The notes below the pieces were generated by a model. The model had not been told where the DNA came from. It made no database searches and was given only the letters and a program-made list of their open reading frames with translations. Positions 1,814 to 63,508 of a DNA stretch of 64,000 nt are shown one piece after another. Position 1 is the first letter of the stretch; each line of letters starts with the position of its first letter. The position numbers were made by a program, and so were the translations under genes. Source of the DNA: Mariniphaga sp. (GTDB lineage: Bacteria > Bacteroidota > Bacteroidia > Bacteroidales > Prolixibacteraceae). The stretch is from contig JAGXGA010000067.1 of NCBI GenBank assembly GCA_024636975.1, forward strand, positions 1 through 64,000. Reading direction: 5' to 3'.

Positions 1814-1926
1814 TTAAACTCAATGTAAACTCAGTGTTATTTCAGTATTAACTCAATGTAAATTCAATTATAATTGAATTTACATTGAGTTAATACTGAG
1901 TTTATATTGAGTTTACATTGAGTTAA
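1814..1926. repeat. 11-bp-periodic palindromic repeat, copy 1
   Basis: This is an imperfect inverted repeat of about 113 bp centred between 1870 and 1871. Each arm has about five 11-bp units: AACTCAATGTA-like on the left and their complements (TACATTGAGTT-like) on the right. Pairing is near perfect in the outer and inner units, with wobbles and mismatches in the second and third. The rest of the spacer 1786-2246 is AT-rich and shows no gene. Related copies lie at 21875-21977 and 63295-63406. Confidence 0.9.
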
Positions 1927-21367: not shown

Positions 21368-21379
21368 TTAAGCTTGAAG

Positions 21380-21411
21380 ATCCGGTATTGCCCTGCAGTA
21401 CCGGATTTCTT
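21380..21411 (+). terminator. Hairpin terminator after hydA
   Basis: ATCCGGTA (21380-21387) pairs with TACCGGAT (21399-21406) around an 11-nt loop, followed by a short T-rich run. It lies 13 bp after the hydA stop. The weak T-tract makes it a moderate terminator. Confidence 0.5.
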
Positions 21412-21608
21412 CCCAAAAAAGCCTTAACTGTCCCATATTGAATTTACCGGAAAGTATTTTTATAACACAACTTCCAAAAAATGAGACATATAAAACTATG
21501 GAGTAGTGTTTGATGAAATCTATTTAAATCATTTTGTAAATTCTGGGAAGATAAAAGCTAAATACTTTTTGCGTAAAATTCTGTTTTAACAAGAAGCATT
21601 TAACTGGG

Positions 21609-21640
21609 GGTTGTCAGTATCTGACAACCTCTTTTTTTTT
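21609..21640 (+). terminator. Strong intrinsic terminator
   Basis: GGTTGTCAG (21609-21617) and CTGACAACC (21621-21629) form a perfect 9-bp stem with a 3-nt loop, followed by a nearly pure T-tract to 21640. No gene ends just before it; the nearest upstream stop is hydA, 240 bp away. Confidence 0.75.
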
Positions 21641-21874
21641 ATTAGAACTGCCGGTAAAATCACAACTCAGCTATTCAGCTGGCTTATTTACCACCTGCAC
21701 AGCTTCAAAAAAACAGCACAATCCGTCACCACTTTTTTAAAAGCACAATCCCTGCAGACACGTTTCAATAAAAATGAAAAACATACCCTATATCTTTTTT
21801 GCAGAATACAGGTTGTAGTGCTTTTGCTTTCACGGGCACCTAAAAATATTGTATCCCGACATACCTGCTACGGA

Positions 21875-21977
21875 TTAAACTCAATGTAAACTCAATATTA
21901 ATTCAGTATTAACTCAATGTAAATTCAATTATAATTGAATTTACATTGAGTTATATTTGAGTTTACATTGAGTTTAA
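21875..21977. repeat. 11-bp-periodic palindromic repeat, copy 2
   Basis: This has the same structure as copy 1: five AACTCAATGTA-type units on the left, the same AATTCAATTATAATTGAATT-type centre (between 21931 and 21932), and only four complementary units on the right, so one right-arm unit is missing. The flanks carry TACCTG at left (21862) and its complement CCAGGTA at right (21984-21990), which suggests short outer inverted ends. Confidence 0.9.
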
Positions 21978-22243
21978 CATGGTCCAGGTATCTCATATTC
22001 TTGTTTTATACAACCCTGGATGCAAAGAGTATATATTGAAAAATTTTTCTTAAAAACCTTATTTTCAATATTTAACCTTAGTAAAGCACTTGGTTTCTCA
22101 GATTTCTCAACCTTATTATTTTTTTAAATGCTTTTAATCCGGGAAATAAGGGAATAAGGTTTGGGTATAGTAGTTTCGGATAGATACTAAGAAAATAAAA
22201 CAACAGGATGGCGCAGTTTTCATTATGAGCATTATTTTAATCA

Positions 22244-22259
22244 GCGAATCGGAATTCGC
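22244..22259. repeat. CGGA-loop hairpin, copy B
   Basis: GCGAAT - CGGA - ATTCGC is a perfect 6-bp stem with the same CGGA tetraloop as the element at 14475-14490. It is preceded by AATCA and followed by a CCC-containing segment. Three base pairs of the stem differ between the copies, and each change is compensated on the other arm. Confidence 0.6.
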
Positions 22260-22359
22260 TGCTCCCGGTTCACCTGTTGTCTATGACAAATCAAAATTTA
22301 TTGGATGGTCAGCATAAAAAACAATGCTGCTTTTCAATAAAAAAATGCCTGTTTTCTTC

Positions 22360-22367
22360 TAAATTTG
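22360..22367 (+). promoter_or_regulatory. Promoter -7 element of the nuclease-fold gene
   Basis: TAAATTTG at 22360-22367 is a perfect match to TAnnTTTG, 33 bp before the ATG at 22400. No good -33 TTTG is seen at the expected distance. Confidence 0.4.
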
Positions 22368-22399
22368 CTGATATTGTAAAATATAATCAATAAAAACAG

Positions 22400-62170: not shown

Positions 62171-62791
62171 ATGGATACAGCAATAAAAAATTCCAACCTT
62201 CAGGATGAAGCACAATCACTCCAACTCATTCGTGAAATGATAGCAACATCACGGAACAAGCTAAACAAAGACGGCATTTTGTTTATTGTATGGGGATGGA
62301 TATCCTTCATCAACTATTTCCTGTTAAATTATCTTCCCGAACAAATTTTACTGTCCAATCGGGTTATGCAGCTAACCAGAAGTCTTCGGGTCATACTTCC
62401 TTTGCTGGGACTGACTTATACGCTTTATTATATTTTGAAACAACGAAGCAGAGTACAAACGTATATGGGCATATCTCTCAGGTACGTCTGGGGTTCGCTG
62501 CTGGTCAGTCTTGTGCTGGTAAACCTTATCCAGATGAATGTCCTGCACAGTATCAATTTTGAATTACAGCATCCGATTTTTATGGTTTTAATCGCATTTG
62601 CGATAACTGTCACAGGAGGCATTTTGCGTTATAAACTTTTAATTGCCGGCGGAATTATTTTCGGCCTGCTGGCATTTATAGCTTCCTATTTACAACTCCA
62701 TGACCAGTTATTGTTGGAAGCCATTGCATGGCTGGTTGCATTTATCATTCCCGGACATATTATGTATGCAAACCGAAATTTAAAAAAATGA
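62171..62791 (+). CDS. Predicted multi-spanning membrane protein
   Basis: The product has 206 residues. The first 35 residues are soluble (LQLIREMIATSRNKLNKDG), then about five to six hydrophobic helices follow (GILFIVWGWISFINYFLL, VILPLLGLTYTLYYIL, YVWGSLLVSLVLVNLI, PIFMVLIAFAITVTGGIL, IIFGLLAFIASYLQL, AIAWLVAFIIPGHI). No known motif is seen. It overlaps the downstream regulator by 4 bp, so the two are co-translated. Such pairs of membrane protein and small winged-helix regulator are frequent in Bacteroidota; the role is unknown. Confidence 0.65.
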   Translation: MDTAIKNSNLQDEAQSLQLIREMIATSRNKLNKDGILFIVWGWISFINYFLLNYLPEQILLSNRVMQLTRSLRVILPLLGLTYTLYYILKQRSRVQTYMGISLRYVWGSLLVSLVLVNLIQMNVLHSINFELQHPIFMVLIAFAITVTGGILRYKLLIAGGIIFGLLAFIASYLQLHDQLLLEAIAWLVAFIIPGHIMYANRNLKK

Positions 62792-63105
62792 CATTTAAAG
62801 ATCTTGATCCTTTATTGCATTCTCAGGTCCGGTTGGCTATTATGTCTATACTTGTTATGGTTAAATCGGCTGAATTTGGATTTCTTCTCGAAAGCATAAA
62901 TACCACCAAAGGGAATCTTAGTTTTCAGCTTAAAAAACTTAGTGAAGCAGATTATATCGCGATTAAAAAATCATTCAAAGGAAACTACCCATTGACCACC
63001 TGTAAAATAACTCCCATTGGGTTAGATGCGTATGAAGCGTATGTAAATTCTATAGGTGAATATTTTTCCGGGTTTAAAAATAGTGCTGATTCCACTCAAA
63101 AATGA
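62788..63105 (+). CDS. Small winged-helix transcriptional regulator
   Basis: The product has 105 residues from the ATG overlapping the upstream stop (ATGA). A longer frame starts at 62728 inside the previous gene and is not credible. The sequence has the winged-helix pattern of the one-domain MarR/PadR-like family: LDPLLHSQVRLAIMSILV, FGFLLESINTTKGNLSFQLKKLSEADYIAIKKSFKGNYPLTTCKITPIGLDAYEAYV, i.e. recognition helix then wing. It probably binds the palindrome at 62129 and controls its own operon. Confidence 0.8.
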   Translation: MTFKDLDPLLHSQVRLAIMSILVMVKSAEFGFLLESINTTKGNLSFQLKKLSEADYIAIKKSFKGNYPLTTCKITPIGLDAYEAYVNSIGEYFSGFKNSADSTQK

Positions 63106-63294
63106 GATAAAGCAATTACATTGAAAAAACCTGGAATTTTGCCCAATTCATAATTACACAAGAGATTTTTAATAATACTCATTTCATATTGAATGGTTGC
63201 TGTTATTATGCCCTACAAACAAATCAAATTTTTGATTTTGACAATCATTGTAAATCCATGTACCGGATAATACATTCATGCTACCTTCTCCTTA

Positions 63295-63406
63295 TTAAAC
63301 TCAATGTTAACTCAGTTATAATTCAGTATTAACTCAATATAAACTCAATTAAAATTGAATTTACATTGAGTTTGTATTGAGTTAATATTGAGTTTACATT
63401 GAGTTT
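63295..63406. repeat. 11-bp-periodic palindromic repeat, copy 3
   Basis: This is the same architecture as copies 1 and 2: left-arm units AACTCAATGTT, AACTCAGTTAT, AATTCAGTATT, AACTCAATATA, then an AACTCAATT/AATTGAATT centre and four TGAGTT-type right units. The flank TACCTTCTCC on the left resembles copy 1, and GGTCCAGGT on the right resembles copy 2. It fills most of the gene-free spacer 63106-63508 between convergent genes. Confidence 0.9.
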
Positions 63407-63508
63407 GGTACGGTCCAGGTGTATACAAACCATTACCTATACATACCAAACCTTTCCGTGGTAAAGGTAAAATCAGCTCACTAATAAGGGTTGCACTCAG
63501 CTCACGGG

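Follow-up and report, generated by a model that had tools for sequence, protein, structure and literature searches.

The draft genome of Mariniphaga sp. (G000; 5.76 Mb in 67 contigs) contains at least 65 intergenic palindromes, each built of 11-bp units repeated outward in both directions from a conserved center, and no two copies located on the same contig lie closer together than 18.4 kb. The constraint on the units, the two-way symmetry, the outward decay in 11-bp steps, the intergenic position and the spacing of the located copies were all observed, as were the restriction of the sequence to one lineage in the genomes searched and the occurrence, in two genomes from another genus, of 11-bp arrays whose units differ and many of which have dyad form. 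The palindromes are tentatively interpreted, with a confidence that stays short of even, as loading sites for a DNA-binding protein that would assemble symmetrically, with one subunit per helical turn, on dyads kept apart from one another; we infer the protein as reader, its multimerization and a role in chromosome organization or segregation. The first-pass annotation had offered a protein array, a mobile element and a structured RNA as possible mechanisms: the first fits best, the second is the main rival, in the form of an old mini-element mobilized in trans and endowed with target immunity, and the third is disfavored.

The window, that is, the whole stretch of 64,000 nt that was analyzed, holds three of the copies. 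Direct reading and a repeat search recovered all three where they had been annotated, with 11-bp unit spacing and a AATTCAATTATAATTGAATT-type center. A 17-mer spanning 1.5 units matched the window 17 times at up to three mismatches, always within the three copies (mean of 0.29 and maximum of 2 matches in 100 shuffled windows), and the palindromes with 50-nt arms matching at ≥78% numbered three in the window, exactly copies 1, 2 and 3. With their ACCT...AGGT ends, the elements measure 138, 127 and 138 bp, so that the full length of 130–150 bp suggested earlier was about right. Copy 1 (1802–1939) has its dyad center at 1870/1871 and five 11-bp units per arm; on the + strand, its left arm (1816–1870) comprises five units reading inward, and its right arm (1871–1925) reads outward as TAATTGAATTT ACATTGAGTTA ATACTGAGTTT ATATTGAGTTT ACATTGAGTTA, while the ends are ACCTTCTCC at 1802–1810 and GGAGGT up to 1939. 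Copy 2 (21863–21989; center 21931/21932) is bounded by ACCTGCTACGG and TGGTCCAGGT and has five units on the left and four on the right, in line with the right-arm loss first reported for it. Copy 3 (63283–63420; center 63351/63352) again has five units per arm, between ends ACCTTCTCC and GGTCCAGGT. No strand is assigned to the three copies as wholes. All three centers lie in spacers, as had been claimed; a 92-aa ORF with a TTG start (21611–21889), which is taken to be spurious, extends into the left end of copy 2. Two polarity measures give different answers on the proposal that the three copies share one orientation: the end score points left in all of them (left versus right, 13 v 11, 13 v 9 and 13 v 11 for copies 1, 2 and 3), but the unit model points right, left and right, so that the conserved arm of copy 2 is the left one by both polarity measures and the measures disagree for copies 1 and 3.

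Other features adjoin the copies. The gene for an HTH_34 winged-helix DNA-binding protein (window 62728–63105, + strand) ends 178 bp before copy 3, a link of position only. A repeat with ACCTTATTTTC / ACTAAGGTTAA motifs lies next to copy 2 (window 22050–22160) and occurs several times in a congener, G001 (L160–L163). In three congeners, the counterpart of the copy 2 spacer (window 21368–22399) seems to contain another gene, and gene loss may have taken place at copy 2. Further intergenic repeat families were found near several copies elsewhere in the genome, in the left flanks of L027, L025 and L103 and in the right flanks of L055, L108 and L029.

A first similarity search of the genome gave 40 distinct places from 40 scored candidates, and pattern searches together with retrieved stretches raised the count to 65 distinct copies, which is a lower bound. 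The center pattern matched the genome 126 times, and all 126 matches fall inside the 65 copies. For the three-unit pattern, 252 of the 257 exact matches lie inside the copies, as do 483 of the 492 matches at up to two mismatches (66 matches for the reversed control). The set is therefore close to complete for this assembly. Five exact three-unit matches fall outside all located copies, so that one or two more arrays exist, perhaps as solitary arms or as copies with an altered center; detached arms and remnants of the palindrome are rare in this genome, rather than proven absent, because these five matches have not been placed. Over 110 bp of core, identity between copies has a median of 83% and a maximum of 93.6%, so that no near-identical pair exists among the 65, and no common flanks were found in the ten closest pairs. 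The view of the first-pass annotation that the three copies belong to a dispersed family with units of about one helical turn, unlike a REP element or a terminator, is thus upheld and extended to at least 65 copies, and the family retains its center and its unit length throughout the genome.

Read outward, a unit has the form NNAYTGARTTN, and the arms end in sequences of the AGTCMGGMGAAGGTAT type (consensus GGMGAAGGTAT over 92 arms, the base after GGTA being T at 0.51, A at 0.21 and G at 0.16). A motif-based count found five units in 108 of the 130 arms and two to six in the rest; unit frequencies from that count are biased, the units being selected by motif, and an unselected alignment of all 65 copies was preferred for measuring conservation. 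In this alignment, the T, G and A of units 3–4 are conserved at 97–100% in both arms, and unit positions 0, 1 and 10 are far more variable than the T-G-A core. A two-profile model of the 65 copies distinguishes two arms, A being conserved and B variable; positions 3 and 7 of the unit vary mainly between T and C and between A and G, respectively, with other letters reaching 11% in arm B. Conservation peaks at the center and declines outward to the ends, which are the least conserved part and are degenerate in arm B.

Weak base preferences persist past the last conserved GGT, in columns 14–36. Over columns 14–47 of the 92 arms these preferences correlate at a lag of 11 (0.58; 0 of 5000 permutations as high), and the correlation is only 0.14 at lag 10 and 0.23 at lag 12. 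A sequence-dependent 11-bp ruler therefore runs for about 22 bp beyond the recognizable end. In copy 1 the corresponding outer zones, given without strand, are 1780–1801 on the left and 1940–1961 on the right, each covering about 22 bp beyond GGT; the 11-bp preference is a statistical property of the 92 arms genome-wide and is not evident in a single copy.

None of the 65 centers falls inside a predicted gene, and in four copies (window copy 2, L023, L027 and L108) one end overlaps a predicted short ORF. According to a simple ORF caller, the flanking genes are in tandem at 31 copies, convergent at 16 and divergent at 16, with two contexts undetermined. The 35 within-contig intervals between located copies range from 18.4 to 157 kb. 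No interval below 18 kb was seen, against about 10.3 expected under uniform placement with the same counts per contig, and a minimum as large as 18.4 kb was reached in 0 of 20,000 simulations; a genome-wide null, with the other 37 contigs treated as equal in length, agrees. One or two unplaced arrays could add short intervals, yet with two of them the total would still fall far short of ten. The intervals fit random placement beyond an exclusion of 18 kb (CV P 0.19, minimum P 0.67), which indicates a minimum distance and not a periodic spacing. Exclusions of 15 kb (CV P 0.08, minimum P 0.03) and 10 kb (CV P 0.02, minimum P 0.0002) fit less well and poorly, respectively. Such an exclusion distance can be a functional spacing or the effect of target immunity; both would look alike.

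The second of these possibilities corresponds to a quiescent mini-transposon, non-autonomous and dependent on a transposase acting in trans, which would bind the arrays of 11-bp sites at its ends and show target immunity over about 18 kb, an account that is possible, if less than likely. The copies are dispersed, restricted to one lineage and set in mostly unrelated flanks, and their intervals fit a hard exclusion of 15–18 kb with random placement (CV P of 0.08 and 0.19 at the two bounds). The absence of a second copy within a fixed distance, as in the target immunity of Mu, Tn7 and Tn3, holds here with a minimum of 18.4 kb. According to the accessible text of one source, the cis-immunity of Mu peaks near 5 kb and weakens out to 25 kb, and the immunity of Tn3 and Tn7 extends much further; early-stage data from that source itself reach the bulk level at about 7 kb (PMC7350765). 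In addition, GGAGAAGG-like ends recur, by eye, in three arrays of a genome from another genus (G062). On the other hand, target-site duplications showed no consistent excess over re-paired controls in the 48 of 65 copies with both ends recognizable, though old flanks could have lost one (k-mers of 1–10 at offsets −4 to +7, a 2-bp TA being beyond the power of the test); the largest signal was 2 observed vs 0.3, in two cells. The flanks of the copies are unrelated to each other except for a few other repeat families and the pair L109/L110, which has 46 bp in common. The most conserved part of the element is its center and not its termini, young identical copies are missing, and decayed copies or solitary arms are few if any, five three-unit matches being unplaced.

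Searches with the ends gave a similar picture. In this genome, 35 of 38 end-pattern matches lie at the copies, and among the 99 matches to an end plus a unit at up to two mismatches, three lie outside and were found on inspection to be without units. Outside matches to an end plus a unit came to 23 in all; one of the 20 with three mismatches was inspected, and it too was without units. A longer, gene-carrying relative was not seen in the 67-contig draft, in which the five three-unit matches are not placed. The copies look old, given the lack of a consistent target-site duplication, the mostly unrelated flanks and the Y1 transposase loci without the unit described below.

The sequence is restricted to this genome almost entirely. 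Among 60 genomes (this one and 59 relatives), it was found here and otherwise as one 45-bp match of 80% identity in the congener G002. The three-unit pattern occurred in two of 140 family genomes (257 times here and once in G062) and in one of 395 phylum genomes, the present one. Palindromes with 50-nt arms at ≥78% were absent from 400 kb each of G002 and of another congener, G003, and a window copy found no match among plasmid and phage records. A 20-mer had 0 matches in viral contigs; the three-unit pattern had two, both short direct arrays and neither of them a dyad (L215 and L216, phage-like contigs of IMG/VR with four to five copies of the 11-bp TATTATTGAGT). In a collection of genome contigs the 20-mer had ten exact matches, each single and isolated within the 100 bp inspected per side, and these were rejected as members of the family. 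Both flanks of five of the 65 copies could be matched in congener stretches (eight copy-by-genome pairs). The comparison of empty with filled spacers, which the first-pass annotation had called for, showed the element to be absent in all eight aligned pairs and gave no clean junction: the orthologous congener spacers differ over more than the element.

Arrays with the same 11-bp geometry and other units were found in two genomes of another genus of the family, G061 and G062. The dyad that holds the single three-unit match of G062 has NNACCTATTNN as its inner units and ATTGARTT units farther out. A search with this inner unit gave 21 matches on ten G062 contigs and a single one in G010, the remaining 138 family genomes having no match; ends that look GGAGAAGG- or ACCTTCTCC-like by eye are present in three G062 arrays. 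Sampled stretches of related genomes were scanned for 11-bp periodicity irrespective of sequence. In the 227 kb of G062 sampled, 17 runs were detected, a count that includes separate halves of an array interrupted by N gaps; 10 of the 20 contigs in this sample had been chosen for their matches (four runs in 82 kb on the ten unselected contigs). In G061 the scan detected three runs in 80 kb, or five distinct ones in 140 kb with a further 60 kb added. Control periods other than 11 gave 0–4 runs in G062 and 0–3 in the 80-kb G061 stretch. Arms of 40 nt matching at 31 or more positions were present at 9 of the 17 G062 runs and at two of the first three G061 sites, and ORFs of ≥300 nt were overlapped by 0 of 17 and 0 of 3 runs, respectively. 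By eye, the 80 kb of one G061 contig hold four sites with four unit types, three as dyads and one as a direct run. Because the dyads of G061 and G062 carry other units, the geometry is common to these genomes and the unit sequence is not. No 11-bp runs were found in G060 (20 kb + 400 kb), G002 and G003 (400 kb each) or G001 (9 kb), and G063 gave one in 172 kb, a direct array overlapping a predicted ORF (L258:3822-4043, about fifteen GGTCATTCART units of 11 bp). One G062 array compared with plasmids and phages and one G061 array compared with plasmids had no match. One G062 contig carries two arrays separated by about 10 kb. The 18-kb rule therefore does not extend to all 11-bp arrays and may be limited to one unit type or to the Mariniphaga genome.

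Direct 11-bp arrays and a dyad of another type also occur beside the palindromes in the Mariniphaga genome itself. A direct array of GGAGATTGAGT-like units (L029:1868-1979) begins about 300 bp from one palindrome copy, another has about eleven units of the TAATCWCYACY-like form (L115:323-457), and about 1.3 kb separates a AATACGAATTT-type dyad (L135:41-172) from a Y1 transposase gene. Units of the AATTCG type, as in this last dyad, are also present in G061 and G062.

In another account, the arrays would have arisen by mutation alone, through slippage in steps of 11 nt and templated correction from arm to arm at short palindromes, free of selection. In its favor, the four sites in 80 kb of G061 each differ in unit, with arms that are alike, by eye, where both are present, and unit number varies from 2 to 6 per arm in the palindromes. 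This origin is nevertheless improbable: one unit type with constraint on each position is common to 65 copies, the spacing of the copies is not random, and direct 11-bp arrays occur without a palindrome.

Whether the constraint acts on a folded strand or on double-stranded DNA bears on the relation between the arms, since a hairpin that was itself the selected object should have arms that covary. With columns treated as independent, units 1–2 do covary between arms (z +3.9), but units 3–5 anti-covary (z −5.0 to −6.4), and no excess is seen in the end regions (z −1.4 and −0.6). Of the 58 copies that could be oriented (seven of the 65 were ambiguous), 48 receive the same polarity from the end score as from the unit model, and polarity is not shared between neighbors (19 same, 16 opposite). 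With the better end used to orient the copies, positions 3 and 7 differ as 143 G-U versus 70 A-C mismatches (37 versus 13 by copy, P 0.0009), an excess that would also be expected if arm A were simply nearer the consensus. On the presumed transcribed strand of the 31 tandem-gene contexts, no pairing preference appears (91 G-U versus 114 A-C). On balance, the covariation and mismatch data favor, as far as sequence comparison can indicate, double-stranded DNA that would be read outward alike on both arms.

A structured RNA or single-stranded DNA hairpin, that is, a long folded stem acting as a terminator, processing or sponge element, is accordingly placed among the quite improbable accounts. 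Its predicted RNA hairpin is strong (−77.6 kcal/mol, z −16), as it would be for any such palindrome, the A-form RNA turn is likewise 11 bp, and the covariation of units 1–2 and the 143 to 70 excess agree with it, the latter subject to the reservation about arm A. The window has 0 matches to Rfam families at the gathering score, the gene contexts (31 tandem, 16 convergent, 16 divergent) show no bias toward gene ends, the anti-covarying units 3–5 and the ends without covariation count against a selected stem, and an exclusion of 18 kb is not expected from an RNA function.

REPINs, with a RAYT transposase as mover, provide a very improbable explanation. They lack a target-site duplication, as the palindromes do. 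They are also described, in the text available, as extragenic palindromes present in tens to hundreds of copies and often lineage-specific (PMC3116915, PMC3733652), and the present elements are likewise extragenic palindromes in tens of copies. However, the conserved GTAG or CGTC tag is absent beside the hairpin (92 arms), and the combination of variable ends with a conserved center is the reverse of what is described for a REPIN (PMC3116915). Association with RAYT was rejected, as the retrieved flanks of all seven Y1_Tnp matches in this genome are without a two-unit run; one of these seven loci, L135, has the different 11-bp dyad mentioned above about 1.3 kb away. In contrast to REPIN and REP-RAYT systems, the palindromes usually have 5+5 units of 11 bp, a minimum spacing of 18 kb between the located copies and few if any singlet remnants. 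MITEs and ERIC-, Correia- or RUP-like elements are short, dispersed, palindromic and non-coding too, but membership among MITEs (as DDE derivatives) was rejected on the lack of a consistent target-site duplication and on terminal inverted repeats that are not conserved, the arm ends varying independently, and the 11-bp unit architecture, the lack of near-identical copies and the lack of conserved termini set the palindromes apart from all of these groups.

A loading protein is the simplest account of the palindromes because it joins the unit-wise constraint, the two-way symmetry, the 11-bp decay and the mostly independent outer arms. Each palindrome would be a chromosomal loading site, a dyad for a putative sequence-specific DNA-binding protein that would assemble outward in both directions from the center with one contact per 11-bp unit, which is roughly the helical turn of negatively supercoiled DNA. 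The inner five units would be contacted strictly and the GGMGAAGGT-like units that follow more loosely, and contacts would fade about two units further on. Selection would maintain the sites in intergenic DNA, with a minimum of about 18 kb from one to the next, and centromere-like, anchoring or domain-organizing roles would be expected of them. Their dispersal would presumably go back to some copying event long ago, a step outside this reading.

Several observations count against loading sites. Any function is dispensable within the genus, since the three congeners are without the sequence apart from the weak 45-bp match in G002, and the 400-kb samples of G002 and G003 contain neither a palindrome nor an 11-bp array as a replacement. 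The spread to 65 places needs the copying step just mentioned, and unplaced arrays might be less than 18 kb from a copy. The covariation of units 1–2 (z +3.9) and the G-U excess of 143 v 70 would fit a folded strand as well; neighboring copies disagree in polarity, and G062 has arrays about 10 kb apart.

The nearest known systems share some of these features. The parC repeats of plasmid R1 are 11 bp long and form two sets of five. ParB- and Noc-type sites number tens across a chromosome and are short, single palindromes conserved across genera; the palindromes studied here are instead dyads of about 138 bp that are not conserved within the genus. The ParMRC centromere parC of R1 is described as ten direct repeats in two blocks, and plasmid centromeres offer a precedent for iterated sites on helically phased DNA that a multimer reads (PMC5016525), with binding specificities that differ between relatives (PMC9426499), in the portions of these sources available. 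The palindromes resemble parC as an iteron array of about one helical turn per unit (here 11 bp, five units per arm in 108 of 130 arms), and differ from its direct repeats beside a par operon in being inverted around a center at no fewer than 65 chromosomal sites. No par families were detected among eight window neighbors scanned, six of which had Pfam matches. TAACTGA repeats are described, in the text consulted, as intergenic, iterated, with an ACTGA core, sporadic in distribution (Bacteroidetes included) and, in the genome examined in most detail, located for the most part directly ahead of start codons (PMC4679880); they are direct heptamers, whereas the palindromes are composed of inverted 11-bp units. 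Dyads of 11-bp units or evenly spaced palindromes were not found described in the accessible parts of open-licence papers, which is weak evidence of absence.

The palindromes are rated as a new kind of element because the REPIN and MITE tests fail on defining features and no matching described class was found. A broader proposal, which we regard as doubtful, is that they represent an undescribed class of chromosome-wide loading sites in which the geometry (an 11-bp-period dyad, intergenic and kept apart) would be invariant and the unit sequence would be rewritten between genomes, and in G061 even between sites, by co-evolution with a modular DNA-binding protein, the sites dividing the chromosome into domains. 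Bacterial intergenic repeats are usually regarded as selfish or as terminators; in contrast to the usual repeats, those of Mariniphaga combine conservation of each unit over 65 copies, a ruler that continues past their own ends and, for the located copies, a hard minimum distance. If they were mini-transposons, they would belong to a known kind of element instead, and a chromosome-wide record of target immunity would have been preserved. If the protein-loading reading is true, they would represent a type of chromosomal site that is so far undescribed, and the same architecture with other sequences in another genus would provide a natural experiment in the co-evolution of sites and their reader.
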